A model generated the notes under the pieces. It was not told the DNA's origin. It was given only the letters and a program-made list of their open reading frames with translations, and made no database searches. From the IMG/VR virus record IMGVR_UViG_3300042888_002296, positions 1 through 38,139 of that record: a stretch of DNA of 38,139 nt. One strand, given 5' to 3'. The stretch's first letter is position 1. The number at the start of each line of letters is the position of its first letter. The stretch comes from a virus. The translations under genes were made by a program, and so were the position numbers. Shown one piece after another: positions 16,650 to 29,664 of this stretch.

Positions 16650-16789
16650 CCAAATGATTCAAACCTTCCCCAAATGATTCAAACCTTCCCCAAATGATTC
16701 AAACCTTCCCCAAATGATTCAAACCTTCCCCAAATGATTCAAACCTTCCCCAAATGATTCAAACCTTCCCCAAATGATTCAAACCTTCC
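16650..16789 (+). repeat. Seven identical 20-bp tandem repeats
   Basis: CCAAATGATTCAAACCTTCC is repeated seven times head to tail with no mismatch. Each unit contains TGATTCA, a 7-base near-palindrome, and a pyrimidine tract. The array is outside any gene, between converging transcription units (16593 plus, 16854 minus), and follows a palindrome GCTTGCAAGC. It could be an iteron-like protein-binding array, an origin or a recombination site. Confidence 0.97.
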
Positions 16790-16853
16790 CCCACTCTAAA
16801 CCACCACACCAGTTAGACTGTATCACCAGGGGCCGAGATCTCTTGACCTATTT

Positions 16854-23156: not shown

Positions 23157-23525
23157 ATGAGTGATCAATTCCAAGAAAATTTTCCTTTTATTTCCTGTCT
23201 AAAATCTAACGACAAGGAATATGTAGGTATTGTTATCAACTTTGATGACTACGTTGCTAGTATATATGATTTATCTATGATATTAGGAGAATCAGAGAGG
23301 GCACTGTTCCTGGAAATGGGGGAAACGTGGTGGTGGGAAAGTAATCGAAAAATCCCAATCAACATATTTCTTAAAACCGAAATGCAGTTATTCAGACCGT
23401 TTATAAAAACTTTTAATGCAAAAGATGTAGAACTAGTGTTCGGACCAAGCGTAAATCTTAGCGAAATTGCTGAAAAGCGTGTCAAACGTAAATCTATTCA
23501 GCTAGTTAGGAGCGTTCGGAAATAA
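23157..23525 (+). CDS. Hypothetical protein
   Basis: A 122-residue protein (MSDQFQENFPFISCLKSNDK...). An N-terminal beta hairpin (EYVGIVINFDDYVASIYDLS) is followed by WWWESNRKIPINIFLKTEMQ and a basic tail. The style is that of conserved T4-like proteins of unknown role. It is the only plus-strand gene between 19.8 and 38 kb; its 3' end overlaps the mini-DnaE gene by 20 bp. Confidence 0.7.
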   Translation: MSDQFQENFPFISCLKSNDKEYVGIVINFDDYVASIYDLSMILGESERALFLEMGETWWWESNRKIPINIFLKTEMQLFRPFIKTFNAKDVELVFGPSVNLSEIAEKRVKRKSIQLVRSVRK

Positions 23526-24084
23526 GATTTTCGCACAGTAGATTCATATGAACTGCTACCAAAGCTGCGTAACTATGAGCGTGACTCTTCTTAAAATAGT
23601 AGTCGTTAGTAGTCGGTTTAACCCAAACTTCATTCATCACAGTAGCCCAATCGCTACCGATTAAGTATCTTTTAGCAGGCCTGATCATAGCCAACACTGC
23701 GGCTAACTGCCCAATATTCCTTGGTTTCATTTGTCTTAAAATAGGCCCGTGCCCATTGATATGAAACAAGTTGTCAGTAAAGTCGTCCTCTAACAATAAA
23801 TCCCATAACGGTTCAGTGTTTAGCAATCGAACTAGATGCTCTTCATCTTTAACATCCTTATAAACATTTACATTAAGGAAGTCAATCTTAAAATAACCCC
23901 GACTATCAGCAATTTTATAATCAATGCTTGCAGTATCAGTTATGGGATTGTACGGGATAGAATGACAATATACTCCAGTATTGTGCTTTTTAAAAGTTCC
24001 ATTATCTTTAATAGCCGCAGGGATATGCTTGATAATATCAAGGACTTGCTTTCTGTCTGGAAAATCTAAATCAATATCCGGCAT
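23506..24084 (-). CDS. Miniature DnaE/PolIII-alpha-like polymerase core
   Basis: A 192-residue protein whose blocks follow the DnaE catalytic core in order. PDIDLDF (2-8) matches PDxDxDF with two catalytic Asp. KKHNTGV (32-38) with ITDTASI corresponds to the KHAGGV...ITD region. YFKIDFL (64-70) matches VKFDFLG, the third catalytic Asp. FHINGHGPILRQMKPRN through LAMIRPAKR (107-139) matches FQLESRGM...LIALVALFRPGP. YYFKKSHAHSYAAL (162-175) matches the fingers motif GFNKSHSAAYALVSY. Bacterial DnaE exceeds 1,100 residues; PHP, tau-binding and most finger sequence is absent. It ends an operon with sugar genes. Activity is uncertain. Confidence 0.75.
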   Translation of the reverse strand: MPDIDLDFPDRKQVLDIIKHIPAAIKDNGTFKKHNTGVYCHSIPYNPITDTASIDYKIADSRGYFKIDFLNVNVYKDVKDEEHLVRLLNTEPLWDLLLEDDFTDNLFHINGHGPILRQMKPRNIGQLAAVLAMIRPAKRYLIGSDWATVMNEVWVKPTTNDYYFKKSHAHSYAALVAVHMNLLCENLISERS

Positions 24085-24844
24085 GTATAATCTCGTCGTA
24101 GCTAGGTGCGTAGTTTCCGCGATGCTGGACGGTTAATCCCGCCGCCACGTTAGCAAATAGTATAGCTTTTTCTATATCTTTTGTAAAGAGATACTGAGCA
24201 GTTAATGCAGCAAGGAATGTATCCCCACAGCCGCATACGTCCATAACTTCTACTGATTTAGTTGGAAAAATCTTTCCATTATAGACAGCGCCGTCTCCGC
24301 CTTTGGTTATAATTAAATTAGTCGGTTTGCTTGTAGCAAGTTTAGATTCCGCCTCGTTAATCTTAATATAAACTCTGCTATCTTCTCCAAAGAATACTAG
24401 GTCTTTTTTCTTAGTATCTATGAATACAGGACACCTTGACATCTCGACTAGATATCTAATAGATTCGTATGTTAAGAAACCTTTATCGTAATCCGATACT
24501 ACAATTGCATCATACTCATGGAGTGGAACAGTAGGTCTTCCACTCCATGGCACGATACCGTCGTCTAAATCGACTCTGAGTAAGTGCTGTCCTGACCGCG
24601 TATCTATAAATCTAGTTTTAGTGATAGTGTTATCGTTATGAACAAAATCTGCATCTATGTTTAAATTTTTTAGATTAAGATGTACGTTTGCACTCATCCC
24701 GGGCAACTGGTATGTATTAATAATTTTTAATATAGGTACCGGAGCTTCTGGACTTATTCTGTCCACAGTACCTATGTTGTAGATATCAGTACAACTATCA
24801 CCGATCAGTAATACGTTGAATGATGTTTGTTGTTGAGTATCCAT
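24071..24844 (-). CDS. HldE-type heptose-phosphate kinase (PfkB fold)
   Basis: A 257-residue ribokinase-family protein. LIGDSCTDIYNIGTVDRISP with EAPVPILK (to residue 40) is the RfaE/HldE N-terminal signature. VVSDYDKGFLT lies mid-chain, and DVCGCGDTFLAAL (202-214) is the PfkB motif with Asp208 as base and Cys in place of the usual Ala. HldE phosphorylates D-glycero-D-manno-heptose 7-phosphate on the route to ADP-heptose. The gene overlaps the transferase gene (47 bp) and the mini-DnaE gene (14 bp). It is shorter than HldE kinase domains (about 315), so the exact sugar is uncertain. Confidence 0.8.
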   Translation of the reverse strand: MDTQQQTSFNVLLIGDSCTDIYNIGTVDRISPEAPVPILKIINTYQLPGMSANVHLNLKNLNIDADFVHNDNTITKTRFIDTRSGQHLLRVDLDDGIVPWSGRPTVPLHEYDAIVVSDYDKGFLTYESIRYLVEMSRCPVFIDTKKKDLVFFGEDSRVYIKINEAESKLATSKPTNLIITKGGDGAVYNGKIFPTKSVEVMDVCGCGDTFLAALTAQYLFTKDIEKAILFANVAAGLTVQHRGNYAPSYDEIIHAGY

Positions 24845-25193
24845 CTACCAGTTCCACAAATATAATTTCTTTACAATATTCACTGCCTACAATAGGTTTG
24901 TTTCTATAATCGCTACCCTTGACCATTATATCTGGACCAAATAATTTTATTTGATCTATTAGTTCTCGGTCGCTGTCAAATACCCAAACTAAGTCTACAG
25001 ATTTTAGTGCAGTGAGCATGTATGCTCTATCATATTGATGATTGATCGGTCGAGCATTTCCTTTTAATTCTTTTACACGCCGGTCACTATCGATACAAAC
25101 TAGTAATGTTGTTCCGAGGCTTTTAGCATATTCTAATAATACAATATGACCTTTATGCAACACATCAAATGTTCCATTGACAATAATTTTCAT
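24798..25193 (-). CDS. HldE C-terminal-type sugar-phosphate nucleotidyltransferase
   Basis: A 131-residue cytidylyltransferase-fold protein. NGTFDVLHKGHIVLLEYAKS has the HxGH motif (13-16); GPDIMVKGSDYRNKPIVGSE and VDGYSTTNII match the RfaE domain II blocks that bind nucleotide and phosphate. It is predicted to add AMP (or CMP) to a sugar 1-phosphate made by the neighbouring kinase. In most bacteria the two domains are fused in HldE with the kinase first; here they are separate genes with the transferase first. Confidence 0.83.
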   Translation of the reverse strand: MKIIVNGTFDVLHKGHIVLLEYAKSLGTTLLVCIDSDRRVKELKGNARPINHQYDRAYMLTALKSVDLVWVFDSDRELIDQIKLFGPDIMVKGSDYRNKPIVGSEYCKEIIFVELVDGYSTTNIIQRITDR

Positions 25194-25549
25194 TTCTGAC
25201 TATCCCCTTTACCTACTCGATAATTGTCCTCTATTGAATCAGGGGTACTAACTTCGATCAATGTGCCTTCTTCAATACAGATAACCTGATGAGGCAACAG
25301 AGGCGGGTTATGCCAAATATCTCCAACAACTAATTCTGTTTCATATTGTGATGCGTCTTTGGTATTGATACAGATAACTTTAAATTTACCACTAAGGACA
25401 AACCAAGTCTCATCTTTCCCACTGTGGAAGTGCATACTGAATCTTGCACCTTCATTAAAGTTTAGAAACTTTCCGCAGTACTTGTCATTGGATGCAAAAA
25501 TTAATTCACTGCCCCACCCTTTTTCGACCGATCCTTTTAATCTTGTCAT
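25190..25549 (-). CDS. Cupin (sugar isomerase-like)
   Basis: A 119-residue single-domain cupin. The entry VEKGWGSELIF resembles the EKPWG.E start of type II mannose-6-phosphate isomerase cupins. Metal ligands are His40, His42 and Glu47 (SMHFHSGKDETWFVLSG) and His87 (LLPHQVICIEEGTL). It may isomerise or bind a sugar phosphate for the two genes after it. ATGA-type 4-bp overlaps link it to both neighbours. Confidence 0.8.
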   Translation of the reverse strand: MTRLKGSVEKGWGSELIFASNDKYCGKFLNFNEGARFSMHFHSGKDETWFVLSGKFKVICINTKDASQYETELVVGDIWHNPPLLPHQVICIEEGTLIEVSTPDSIEDNYRVGKGDSQK

Positions 25550-26115: not shown

Positions 26116-26319
26116 TTATTCTATCAGCATTAGCATAGCCATTGTAGCCTTCTTATCATCCTCTAAACATAGTAAAACTTCAGAGGAGGAGTTATGCCTT
26201 CGCATAATGCGCCAACCTTCTCCACCTATTCTATCATGAATGTAATAGAGACGAGGCCCAACATGCTTCATGCACCAGGCCTCTGCTTTACCTATACTGG
26301 GAACTTTAAACTCAATCAT
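26116..26319 (-). CDS. WC/LRW-type family member, divergent
   Basis: A 67-residue protein (MIEFKVPSIGKAEAWCMKHV...). It shares the tail plan of the array behind it: helix with AWC, then W, a strand, and an Asp-containing loop before the last strand (LCLEDDKKATMAMLMLIE), although the final RW is lost. Ends two bases before the next start. Confidence 0.65.
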   Translation of the reverse strand: MIEFKVPSIGKAEAWCMKHVGPRLYYIHDRIGGEGWRIMRRHNSSSEVLLCLEDDKKATMAMLMLIE

Positions 26320-26339
26320 GTTCTATAGTATATATCACT

Positions 26340-26750
26340 TTATGTGCCCCACCTCAACAAAAACCATTCGTAGTCTTTGGCATCACGGAATCTAAACGTT
26401 CTATCAACATTGAAATACCATCGTGTCCATGCGTCAGTAATCGTAGGCTCAGGACCAAATTGTTTTACACACCAGGCAAATGCTGCCTGTTGGTCTCTGG
26501 GCAGTTTTGCTTCATACCATTTGGCACGACTGAATCGATATTTGGACGCCGGCTTCATAGGTAACATAATTTCGTTGCAAAGGTTGTTTTGGAACCAAGT
26601 ATTTAGAGTACTCTTGCCAGTCTGCTGCACCGCACTATAATACAAAGTCATTTGGCCCTTTTTCAATCCACCCTGATTCATCCGGTGCCAGAGTACTTGT
26701 TGGTACGACAAAGGTTCTATGCCCTCGGGTACGTCTCTAAGTATTCCCAT
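26340..26750 (-). CDS. WC/LRW-type family member
   Basis: A 136-residue protein. Its N-terminal half (MGILRDVPEGIEPLSYQQVL...) is unique; the C-terminal half has the family plan: AFAWCVKQFGPEPT, a Trp-rich strand pair (WTRWYFNVDRTFRFRD) and DYEWFLLRWGT. The ATG at 26750 forms a TAATG overlap with the previous stop. Function unknown. Confidence 0.75.
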   Translation of the reverse strand: MGILRDVPEGIEPLSYQQVLWHRMNQGGLKKGQMTLYYSAVQQTGKSTLNTWFQNNLCNEIMLPMKPASKYRFSRAKWYEAKLPRDQQAAFAWCVKQFGPEPTITDAWTRWYFNVDRTFRFRDAKDYEWFLLRWGT

Positions 26751-26971
26751 TATGCCCACCTTAACAAAAACATAGATAGATGTTTTGCTTCTTTAAACGC
26801 AAATGTAGTATTACCAAACATACTGTCTATGGACCAAATTCTGTCTCCCATACCTTCCCAGGTTTTAGGAGTAGCATAGGTCCAACTGCCTTTGCCTATG
26901 TTAGCATGACACCACTGTTCCATCTCAGGGTGTAGGTGGTATCGGTCTTTGCCAAATGTATAAAAATTCAT
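26750..26971 (-). CDS. WC/LRW-type family member
   Basis: A 73-residue protein (MNFYTFGKDRYHLHPEMEQW...). Family plan: MEQWCHANIG, then TTFAFKEAKHLSMFLLRWA at the end. The ATG overlaps the previous TGA (ATGA); an in-frame ATG two codons earlier is also possible. Confidence 0.75.
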   Translation of the reverse strand: MNFYTFGKDRYHLHPEMEQWCHANIGKGSWTYATPKTWEGMGDRIWSIDSMFGNTTFAFKEAKHLSMFLLRWA

Positions 26972-27198
26972 GACCATCTCAACACAGTCATCAAATACTC
27001 GTTTTTTGTTGGCCAGGTTACCCACTGAAGATTGTCATCAACTGGAAAACCATTGTTTCTCAAAAATTCAATAGCCTCTTTGCGAACGGCAAGACGTGTG
27101 TCGGTGTCGTCAGTAGTCAAACCTGGAATGAATTTGTCAGTCAGTACATCTCGCAGCCTGTGAAATTCATTGAGTTTATAAAACTGAATTTTTTTCAT
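26968..27198 (-). CDS. WC/LRW-type family member, divergent
   Basis: A 76-residue protein (MKKIQFYKLNEFHRLRDVLT...). The WC helix is replaced by AIEFLRNNGF; the end (WVTWPTKNEYLMTVLRWS) keeps the LRWS tail. Start and stop overlap both neighbours through ATGA. Confidence 0.75.
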   Translation of the reverse strand: MKKIQFYKLNEFHRLRDVLTDKFIPGLTTDDTDTRLAVRKEAIEFLRNNGFPVDDNLQWVTWPTKNEYLMTVLRWS

Positions 27199-27470
27199 GA
27201 CCACCTCAGAATGAATAATGTCAAATCCTTTTCATCTTTAAAATAGAATTTGTCTTTCTTTTCAAACCAACGACTGCCACTATTTCCGAATCGTTCCTTG
27301 CACCAAGCCTGTGCCTGTTCATTTAGATCCAAGGGAGTGCTTTCTGTTCGAGCCATTTCAATCCAGGTATATTTCATACCCCATCCGCCAGCTTCACCCG
27401 TTTTCATAGGTCGCAGTTCGTTTTCGGAACCGATGTTTAGTCCGCCAATGATAGAACTAATACTGGTCAT
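27195..27470 (-). CDS. WC/LRW-type family member
   Basis: A 91-residue protein (MTSISSIIGGLNIGSENELR...). Family plan complete: AQAWCKERFG, SRWFEKKDKFYFKDEKDLTL and final FILRWS. ATG at 27470 chosen because GTGGAG lies six bases upstream; a GTG at 27482 is an alternative. Confidence 0.75.
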   Translation of the reverse strand: MTSISSIIGGLNIGSENELRPMKTGEAGGWGMKYTWIEMARTESTPLDLNEQAQAWCKERFGNSGSRWFEKKDKFYFKDEKDLTLFILRWS

Positions 27471-27472
27471 TT

Positions 27473-27676
27473 CTAACTCCACTTTAATGAAAATAATACT
27501 GCATCTTTTTCTGTTAGCAACACCAAATAATTTAAGTCATCAATTCCATCATGCCAATTGTTTTTAAAGGTTTCATTACACCATTGTTTGATTTTGTCTT
27601 CTTGTCCAGTATCTCCCGGGCCCCATGACACAAAGAAACCTTCCCATACATCGCTGTATCCTATATCAAATTTCAT
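27473..27676 (-). CDS. WC/LRW-type family member
   Basis: A 67-residue protein (MKFDIGYSDVWEGFFVSWGP...). Family plan: IKQWCNETFKNNW, then LVLLTEKDAVLFSLKWS. Start overlaps the previous stop (ATGA). Confidence 0.75.
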   Translation of the reverse strand: MKFDIGYSDVWEGFFVSWGPGDTGQEDKIKQWCNETFKNNWHDGIDDLNYLVLLTEKDAVLFSLKWS

Positions 27677-27873
27677 GACCACCTCAACATAAACATAGTA
27701 AGATCTCGATCTTGTTTAAAATAATATTCAATGCAGGTACTCTGCTGTACTACATTCCACTTGCCTTTAAATGCGCCCAAGGTCTTATCTAACCATTCTT
27801 CGACTTCTCTGGTACTGTGCAAAAGATTAACTTTGGTCTTATGTGGCCACAATTCTTTTTTAAGTCGTCTCAT
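27673..27873 (-). CDS. WC/LRW-type family member
   Basis: A 66-residue protein (MRRLKKELWPHKTKVNLLHS...). Family plan: VEEWLDKTLG (Leu replaces Cys), W, then YYFKQDRDLTMFMLRWS. Start overlaps the previous stop (ATGA). Confidence 0.75.
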   Translation of the reverse strand: MRRLKKELWPHKTKVNLLHSTREVEEWLDKTLGAFKGKWNVVQQSTCIEYYFKQDRDLTMFMLRWS

Positions 27874-28220
27874 GTTAGTGCCTTCACGATTTCATATTGA
27901 CGCAGTGCTTCTTGGACATTGTTCCAAGCAATAGCCAATGCTGGATTAGACTTTGGTGCTTTTCTATATCTCACAGGAGGATCACTATCAACCCACTGCT
28001 CGGGATCATCGGCTGTCCAGTAATAGACATTAGCCCAATGACTATGACAAGTGCTGTCAGTACGCCATTCTCCCTTGCCGTTCATGCCCCCAGTGTGATT
28101 CCAGTAAAAATAATCTACACCACAAGTATCGTCAGCTAGGGTTACGGTCCTAAAGCCCATGTAGTAGCCGCTTTTATCGGGTTGCCGATCTGCTGTATGG
28201 TGCCATATAGAAGTCTTCAT
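27870..28220 (-). CDS. DUF551-like small protein
   Basis: A 116-residue protein from MKTSIWHHTADRQPDKSGYY. The W......P..SGYY opening and the later WANVYYWTADDPEQW resemble DUF551-type phage proteins (W...P..G.Y ... YW.P). Trp/Tyr-rich. The N terminus overlaps the preceding frame by about 47 bp; an ATG at 28259 would overlap more. Function unknown. Confidence 0.65.
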   Translation of the reverse strand: MKTSIWHHTADRQPDKSGYYMGFRTVTLADDTCGVDYFYWNHTGGMNGKGEWRTDSTCHSHWANVYYWTADDPEQWVDSDPPVRYRKAPKSNPALAIAWNNVQEALRQYEIVKALT

Positions 28221-28386
28221 TTGAAAAAGATTTAGTGGTTTCTGATAGAAGGAGTGCATCCCCGTACTTTAATTTTAACATCATTTCCTGTTTTTCGCAA
28301 GTGGTTGTTATCTTGATGTAGGGATTTTCGTTTTGATATTGCCAGCGTGTTCCGTTTAAGGTTTCAAAATCCTGCCATTCGGGCAT
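28174..28386 (-). CDS. Possible WC/LRW-type family relative
   Basis: A 70-residue frame from MPEWQDFETLNGTRWQYQNE. It has W residues, a strand pair (YIKITTTCEKQEMMLKLKYG) resembling the array tail, then an extra C terminus that overlaps the next gene. AAGTGGAAG precedes the ATG. It may be a member whose stop was lost, or the end may be a read-on frame. Confidence 0.5.
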   Translation of the reverse strand: MPEWQDFETLNGTRWQYQNENPYIKITTTCEKQEMMLKLKYGDALLLSETTKSFSNEDFYMAPYSRSATR

Positions 28387-28470
28387 AACGACTTCCACTT
28401 CGCATCCTAATCCAAATAGGAATGTTGCGTCAATTTATCAGGCTTACTCAGTGTCCAAAGTTTTTAGTAA

Positions 28471-28722
28471 TCATACTCCATTACCGCTCCCAAACTTTAG
28501 TGCAAACATAGTTGAGTATTTCTCACCCTTGTTCATAAACTTAAATGTCACATATTCGTCAGCTTGAAATACTGCCCATTCGAAGTCTAGTCCCATAATC
28601 AATCCCTGATCTTTACACCATTCTGCTAACTGGATAGCGTGATTACTGGCATGGTGCAGTTTCATAAAGTCAAGATGCCTATACTGGACTATGGTGTCGA
28701 ACGGTATTTGAATCTCAATCAT
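28471..28722 (-). CDS. WC/LRW-type family member, first of the array
   Basis: An 83-residue protein (MIEIQIPFDTIVQYRHLDFM...). Family plan: LAEWCKDQG, FEWAVFQADEYVTFKF, then a lysine-rich turn and MFALKFGSGNGV, in which LKF stands for LRW. Start overlaps the previous stop by 8 bp. An 84-bp gap follows. Confidence 0.7.
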   Translation of the reverse strand: MIEIQIPFDTIVQYRHLDFMKLHHASNHAIQLAEWCKDQGLIMGLDFEWAVFQADEYVTFKFMNKGEKYSTMFALKFGSGNGV

Positions 28723-28972
28723 CCTTTGTAATTTCTTCTATAACTGGATCTTCGTTAGGAAAATAATGCACATGATATTCTTGCTGGTTAAATTTATACA
28801 CTTCAGAAATGCTGTGTTGATTATTGCTAAACTCGTCGGGTTCGTCTTGCAGTTGTATCATCAACCAAATGTTATCTCGCTCCTGCCCCTCGAGTACGCG
28901 ACGAGGAGGACCCATAACTTTTCGAATAAAAGCCTTGGCTTCTTCCGGAGTCATGTTTAATATATTGGTCAT
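28715..28972 (-). CDS. Hypothetical protein
   Basis: An 85-residue acidic protein (MTNILNMTPEEAKAFIRKVM...). An N-terminal helix with MTPEEAKAFIRKVMGPP, then strands (VYKFNQQEYHVHYFPNEDPV). Overlaps both neighbours (4 and 8 bp). Confidence 0.7.
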   Translation of the reverse strand: MTNILNMTPEEAKAFIRKVMGPPRRVLEGQERDNIWLMIQLQDEPDEFSNNQHSISEVYKFNQQEYHVHYFPNEDPVIEEITKDD

Positions 28973-29664
28973 TTTATGCCTGCTTCGTTTAGGATTTCTT
29001 TAACTAATGCAACATCTGCAGGAAACTCTTTAAATTTTTTCAACCAATATTTAATTTCAAATGCAGGGGTAATCATTGCCAGCTGTTCATCATTCATCTT
29101 GCCTACCATATCTTTACCGGTGTTACAATTTAACAAGACCCAGCAACTAATCTTTCCATTAATAATGTCATGTACTGCTTTGTTTAAACTCACATAGCTA
29201 AAGTAATGTGCAAAATTTGCATTGTGCTCATCACCCCATTCCATCATAGTTTGCAGTGTTCTTTGTACCGCAGATTCGACAGGTTCTACTTTAACTATGT
29301 CAAAAAGATATTGCTCATACAGTTCATCTCTGCACCAATGATCTAATTTAACACCACTCTTAATAACAAAGTCTATAAACTTGCTAGGGTATAATGGATT
29401 TACATTATTAACAAAACTACCAAATTTTACAAAGGCATTATAGTAAGCACTATTGCAAAAATGATCATAATTCTTAGGAACTTTAGCACCTTGCGTAAGT
29501 TGATAAAAACGGTTATAGGCCATGAATCCTGCTTGGACACGTTTTTCAGTTTCTTGCAATGCACGGCGTTTTCTTTCGCACATATGAGCAACTAGAGTTT
29601 TCTCTTTCATAAAACTCTTACTGCAATGTACACAAATAAAAGGCTGTTCCACTAATGCAATCAT
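28969..29664 (-). CDS. C2HC zinc-finger protein
   Basis: A 231-residue protein. Cys11, Cys14, His27 and Cys29 (FICVHCSKSFMKEKTLVAHM) make a C2H2-like finger with Cys as last ligand. A basic helix (ERKRRALQETEKRVQAGFMA) follows, then a helical domain rich in Phe and Tyr. I associate this layout with a conserved protein of T4-like marine phages, function unknown; DNA or RNA binding is likely. Overlaps both neighbours by 4 bp. Confidence 0.7.
   Translation of the reverse strand: MIALVEQPFICVHCSKSFMKEKTLVAHMCERKRRALQETEKRVQAGFMAYNRFYQLTQGAKVPKNYDHFCNSAYYNAFVKFGSFVNNVNPLYPSKFIDFVIKSGVKLDHWCRDELYEQYLFDIVKVEPVESAVQRTLQTMMEWGDEHNANFAHYFSYVSLNKAVHDIINGKISCWVLLNCNTGKDMVGKMNDEQLAMITPAFEIKYWLKKFKEFPADVALVKEILNEAGIK

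Follow-up and report, generated by a model that had tools for sequence, protein, structure and literature searches.

The minus strand of the window (the whole 38,139-nucleotide stretch of virus DNA analysed here) carries, between positions 26116 and 28722, eight small genes with a recurring tail, seven of which firmly and one probably belong to a single protein family that is previously undescribed. We propose that they form a combinatorial accessory array of this one family, encoding exchangeable small non-enzyme binders that would have different targets and would be expressed as middle genes; we consider the case for this reading to be about evenly balanced. The genome of the phage is known from this 38-kb record alone. 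All eight genes had been listed, by their start positions, in an original prediction made for this DNA, and their coordinates and strand proved correct, with ATG at each named start. The genes of the array and the two that interrupt it are given below, where L numbers denote loci used for comparison and letters denote clusters of orthologues.

28471-28722, minus strand: cluster K member, 83 aa; independent profile E 6.7e-4, 0 of 300 shuffles as high; orthologues in L003 and L018
28174-28398, minus strand: interrupting gene, a possible degenerate member (YIKITTTCEKQEMMLKLKYG); borderline tail, E 0.67, 1 of 300 shuffles as high
27870-28259, minus strand: interrupting gene, non-member; family profile E 63
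27673-27873, minus strand: cluster F member, 66 aa; independent profile E 3.6e-9; cluster F also in L003, L018, L011, L139 and L142
27473-27676, minus strand: cluster L member, 67 aa; independent profile E 1.2e-6
27195-27470, minus strand: cluster B member, 91 aa; E 5.5e-16; AlphaFold model m3fbe2ac2027a, pLDDT 76.6
26968-27198, minus strand: probable member, 76 aa; E 0.24, 0 of 300 shuffles as high; the recognisable part is the tail only
26750-26971, minus strand: cluster E member, 73 aa; E 2.6e-8
26340-26750, minus strand: member, 136 aa, with a long unique N-terminal part; E 2.8e-10
26116-26319, minus strand: cluster O member, 67 aa; E 1.6e-4; orthologue in L003

The tandem arrangement that had been claimed for the whole run holds for the six genes from 27873 to 26340, which are consecutive and either overlap or nearly touch, but not for the stretch between 28722 and 27873, where the genes at 28174-28398 and 27870-28259 interrupt the series. 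The second of these has text like 'KSGYYMGF...YYWTADDPEQW' and no Pfam match, and we take it to be reminiscent of DUF551-type proteins.

The C-terminal domain and its family

Family membership was assessed using two kinds of profile. In the first test, leave-one-out profiles were built from window members only, and these recovered 27873, 27470, 26971 and 26750 at E 5e-7 to 4e-10 and 27676 at E 0.002; 28722 (E 0.012) and 26319 (E 0.042) were marginal, and 27198 was not recovered. The stricter test used profiles from other phages only, with L003, L018 and each gene's own orthologues excluded. Seven of the eight listed genes were then significant (E 5e-16 to 7e-4, bearing in mind that E-values within iterated profiles are not independent of each other) and 27198 was weak (E 0.24); the scores of all eight were unreached by any of 300 shuffles, and three neighbouring non-member genes gave only noise. 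For 27198, hhalign aligns just the last 17 C-terminal residues. On the basis of the stricter E-values and this short match, we regard seven members as firm and 27198 as probable. A profile search of phages, which had been suggested as a check on the shared motif, thus recovers it in seven of eight genes, and the stricter profiles support the existence of one family with a common C-terminal domain and different N-terminal parts.

Relatives were gathered from uncultured viral contigs, most of which are fragments, and we count ~100 distinct members at roughly 30 loci on contigs of uncultured jumbo phages. The domain comprises ~44 residues at the C-terminus: a helix containing W(C/L), one strand containing a Trp and another containing F.F, and a second helix containing (D/A).(T/L)(M/L)F.L(R/K)W. 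W, F, F, L and W occupy the columns that come closest to invariance, and an Asp is frequent as well. Most conserved residues are hydrophobic or aromatic, which suits the core of a fold, and no catalytic residue pattern is seen among the conserved columns of the domain; the missing conserved polar residues argue weakly against catalysis.

Structure prediction, also proposed earlier as a check on whether the members have one fold, gives a common predicted core topology for clusters A and B. The AlphaFold model of cluster A (the GKDFDFAY cluster, 71 aa) reaches a pLDDT of 93.1, its elements following one another as beta-alpha-beta-(hairpin)-beta-alpha, and that of 27470, from cluster B (11 members among the loci compared), has the same beta-alpha-beta-beta-alpha core behind an extra N-terminal strand, at a lower confidence (pLDDT 76.6). 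Cluster A and the WC-type members have the last strand and helix in common, with a profile-profile probability of 94.6%. The domain is therefore predicted to be part of a beta-alpha-beta-beta-alpha core resembling an incomplete ferredoxin-like plait. The first five elements of ferredoxin-like (alpha/beta-plait) folds match the cluster A model (pLDDT 93) in order, but the fourth core strand of that fold (beta-alpha-beta-beta-alpha-beta) is not predicted in cluster A. The top weak PDB matches of the cluster A model include the alpha/beta-plait proteins CutA1, PII and an ACT domain, at E values of at least 0.15 and a TM of ~0.5, and a sequence search of the PDB gave no match to the domain. For cluster B, the closest structures in BFVD are the uncultured Caudovirales proteins A0A6J5L6V8, A0A6J5KVW6, A0A6J7WGK8 and A0A6J5T1G0 (E 1.8e-5 to 1.6e-4, probability 1.0), all of them uncharacterised and without name or function.

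The domain is missing from Pfam, PHROGs, NCBIfam and PADLOC, and scans of these libraries gave scattered weak matches, none of which was common to two members. PC4, DHH_CID and a PHROG 'DNA binding protein' were each matched by one member at E ~0.003-0.006, and were rejected as chance hits after multiple testing. Among 39 members, none matched the anti-phage defence components in PADLOC, and our search of the literature found no description of the domain family.

Distant relatives are found in cultured phages. A whole-genome profile search of Sinorhizobium phage Phosso (PV764938) gave 29 places at E<=0.1, with a best value of 1e-7, and about 35 after iteration. In Pseudomonas phage PA5oct, the same kind of search gave firm matches for gp237 and gp210 (E 4-8e-6) and a further match for gp209 (E 6e-4), and Atu_ph07 showed weak matches to the domain. 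Whole-record profile searches of T4, EcS1, the cyanophages S-SM2 and P-SSM2, CBB, XaC1 and SCTP-2 gave no domain match, tblastn of a phage collection using one window member and one cluster A member gave none either, and no family match was seen in plasmids or bacterial genome contigs. In Phosso, and in PA5oct gp237 and gp210, the domain is the same by profile, with tails such as WCTDN...IHFKLRPDAMIFKLAWS. Unlike the window genes, however, the Phosso and PA5oct members lie dispersed through the genome or in short runs, all annotated as hypothetical, and the Phosso tails mostly lack an AGG-based ribosome-binding site. At 404675-405685 of PV764938 (L126:234-1283), the tail domain closes an uncharacterised open frame of 350 residues; this may be a domain fusion, and as such it could offer a clue to function.

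Gene ends as translation signals

Four junctions within the array are listed here to show how gene ends meet the next gene.

27673-27687, minus strand: junction at LRWS-stop, TTGAGGTGGTCATGA, with a Shine-Dalgarno-like GAGGTG and the overlapping start (ATGA) of the next gene
27195-27209, minus strand: junction to gene 27198, CTGAGGTGGTCATGA
26968-26982, minus strand: junction to gene 26971, TTGAGATGGTCATGA
26748-26764, minus strand: junction to gene 26750, TTAAGGTGGGCATAATG

Of the 62 family junctions, 33 have a site of the form [AG]AGGTG/GAGATG, against 6 of 147 overlapping junctions outside the family. In LR[WYF], Arg is encoded by AGG in 20 of 27 cases, by AGA in the other 7 and by CGN in none, and the Arg codons in long open reading frames of the family loci are 8.5% AGG and 60% CGN. 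It could be argued from such data that the signature merely reflects a ribosome-binding site written into the gene ends, with no protein family behind it: in the window lineage LRWS itself encodes GAGGTG together with the next gene's overlapping start, and once amino-acid identity is allowed for, codon identity is in clear excess in the last ~six codons only. We judge this to be extremely improbable, as the homology spans ~44 residues and codon divergence is ordinary further upstream, LRW-type ends are rare at ordinary overlapping junctions (6 of 147), and in Phosso the FKLxW end is conserved although it is mostly encoded without a GAGGTG-type site. Because Phosso keeps its end in this way, we see the domain as conserved at the protein level, with its last codons serving additionally as a ribosome-binding site in the window lineage. 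A role for the tail as a translation signal only is ruled out for the whole domain, and holds for the last ~six codons.

As many of the gene ends in the window lineage carry a ribosome-binding site and often an overlapping start, an inserted gene could be translated without a control region of its own. In this simple layout, translation signals that overlap can at the same time mark the limits of a cassette. A bolder version is that the conserved end (tail, ribosome-binding site and overlapping start) is a universal connector for an interchangeable operon, built by recombination with no dedicated integrase, that retargets host inhibition; this we consider rather unlikely.

Gene turnover at two conserved hotspots

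The array lies in a variable interval bordered by two core genes.

28969-29664, minus strand: left hotspot border, zinc-finger protein, phrog_11058 (PHROG E 5.9e-57); beside the hotspot in syntenic loci
23506-24084, minus strand: right hotspot border, DnaE-like polymerase fragment, phrog_11778 (PHROG E 4.8e-63); assigned by synteny

The DnaE-like gene is too short for a polymerase; it is conserved beside replication genes in jumbo phages. The interval between the two genes, hotspot 1, holds 1 to 8 family members in the syntenic array loci and often also a cupin gene and a CTP_transf_like/PfkB pair. In the window, the cupin, CTP_transf_like and PfkB-kinase genes occupy 24071-25549 within the hotspot, and they are absent there in PA5oct, L049 and L052; as a group they resemble a split HldE-type (ADP-heptose) module. 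Across related genomes, the number of family members between the same two core genes ranges from 0 to 8. In PA5oct the zinc-finger and DnaE-like genes are adjacent, with no family member between them. The 355-kb contig G009 encodes a helicase with 79% identity to the one in the window phage; in this contig a single unrelated gene separates the two border genes, and the array is found at hotspot 2, a site beside a metallophosphoesterase that is common to ten loci.

Some fifteen orthologue clusters recur in differing subsets and orders among the 30 loci at these two hotspots, and several of them, including A, B, C, E, F, H and L, occur at both. The window has the order K-F-L-B-(27198)-E-(26750)-O, L011 has M-C-I-L-H-B-F-A, L133 has C-I-B-A, L139 has C-I-F-B and L142 has C-G-H-F-I-J. 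Cluster A adjoins the zinc-finger gene in most syntenic loci. The junction between F and B is occupied by a cluster L gene in the window and by a different LRW-ending gene (MKVEPTSYPG...FMLRWL) in L018, and F is directly followed by B in L003. The F genes of these three loci share 90-92% DNA identity, and the exchange occurs exactly at the ATG after the LRW end, the exchange junctions showing the short ribosome-binding site/start motif only. Content is altered one gene at a time at stop/start junctions of this kind and, judging by the pattern of exchange, we suggest that recombination at the short repeated gene ends would drive the gain and loss of cassettes.

The family had been described as rapidly diversifying, which the substitution rates do not support in that form. 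Simple pairwise estimates of dN/dS between orthologues, with high dS in several pairs and the pair p27870 left out due to an apparent codon-mapping error, are ~0.02-0.26, and the neighbouring core genes are similar or modestly lower at 0.06-0.12; no positive selection was found by this pairwise comparison of orthologues. The low values indicate that turnover proceeds by gain and loss of whole genes, rather than by fast change within genes, so that the variation is one of gene presence and order. The divergence among clusters is old.

Timing, candidate functions and nearest analogues

Between 4188 and 15169, the plus strand of the window has 22 consensus sigma-70 promoters that are nearly identical to each other; chance alone would give 0.15. 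They take the form TTGAC-N17-19-TATAAT, many continuing ACATACATC, and stand ahead of many small genes, so that the stretch of 4.2-15.2 kb looks like the early region, in which each gene or small set of genes would have its own promoter. A tandem repeat at its edge (16650-16800) comprises about 7-8 copies of a 20-nt unit (AAATGATTCAAACCTTCCCC). The array contains no consensus sigma-70 promoter; it reads opposite to the promoter-rich region and forms one co-directional block with the UvsW, primase and helicase genes. As it lies outside the promoter-rich early region and with the replication genes, we infer middle expression, meaning that the array would be expressed together with the replication genes and not immediately after infection.

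The small size of the proteins, their lack of a catalytic signature, the coexistence of many types, gene-wise turnover at the hotspots and purifying selection within each type fit binders with different targets. Such proteins would be small binders and not enzymes, and their variable N-termini and loops would contact different host or rival-element proteins. The net charge of window members spreads from -6 to +7 and so suggests no single ligand type; a uniform charge, hinting at nucleic-acid binding or DNA mimicry, was not seen among them. Judged from sequence, the likeliest class of function would be inhibitors of host functions, including defence systems, followed by regulators of the phage's own replication.

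A narrower form of the first of these makes the locus an anti-defence islet in which every protein would block another of the bacterial immune systems. In its small proteins, hypervariable position, gene-by-gene turnover and differing N-termini, the array agrees with published descriptions of phage accessory genes directed against host defences (PMC12373910). Its position outside the early region is, however, mild evidence against an early inhibitor role, and the low dN/dS and the lack of a match to named families also speak against the islet, which we see as possible but not favoured.

Alternatively, the proteins may be modulators of the phage machinery for replication, recombination or transcription, with the array acting alongside the neighbouring replication genes. 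Its place in the co-directional block agrees with this, as does the near-constant position of cluster A beside the zinc-finger gene in different lineages, a placement that would suit a fixed core role of at least this cluster. The interval without a member in PA5oct and the array found elsewhere in G009 imply, though, that no member is essential at hotspot 1, and presence and order are too variable for core machinery; we find this explanation unlikely.

For the preferred reading of exchangeable binders, as for its alternatives, the cultured relatives PA5oct and Phosso make function directly testable. Jumbo phages carry this family, which is new to current libraries, in abundance, with about 35 copies in a single cultured phage, and a profile of the domain can be searched against many hypothetical genes.

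Finally, the proteins might be internal virion proteins like the T4 Ip, with the shared tail as a packaging signal. T-even Ips are polymorphic small accessory proteins with one terminal module in common and at least 10 types in related phages; the module is an N-terminal capsid-targeting signal, and the proteins are packaged and injected (PMC12373910). A shared terminal module, a variable remainder and a polymorphic set of small genes do resemble these proteins (PMC12373910). The T4 signal is N-terminal, however, and here a folded C-terminal domain makes up most of many members, none of the array members showing a shared N-terminal capsid-targeting signal. In PA5oct, moreover, gp237, gp210 and gp209 carry no ESI-MS/MS note in the deposited annotation and many other genes do, although small proteins can be missed. 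A packaging role is in our view very unlikely. The array differs from the T-even Ips in that its shared module is a C-terminal folded domain and it is the N-termini that vary; in sharing one terminal module and differing elsewhere, its proteins find in the T-even Ips their nearest described analogue.
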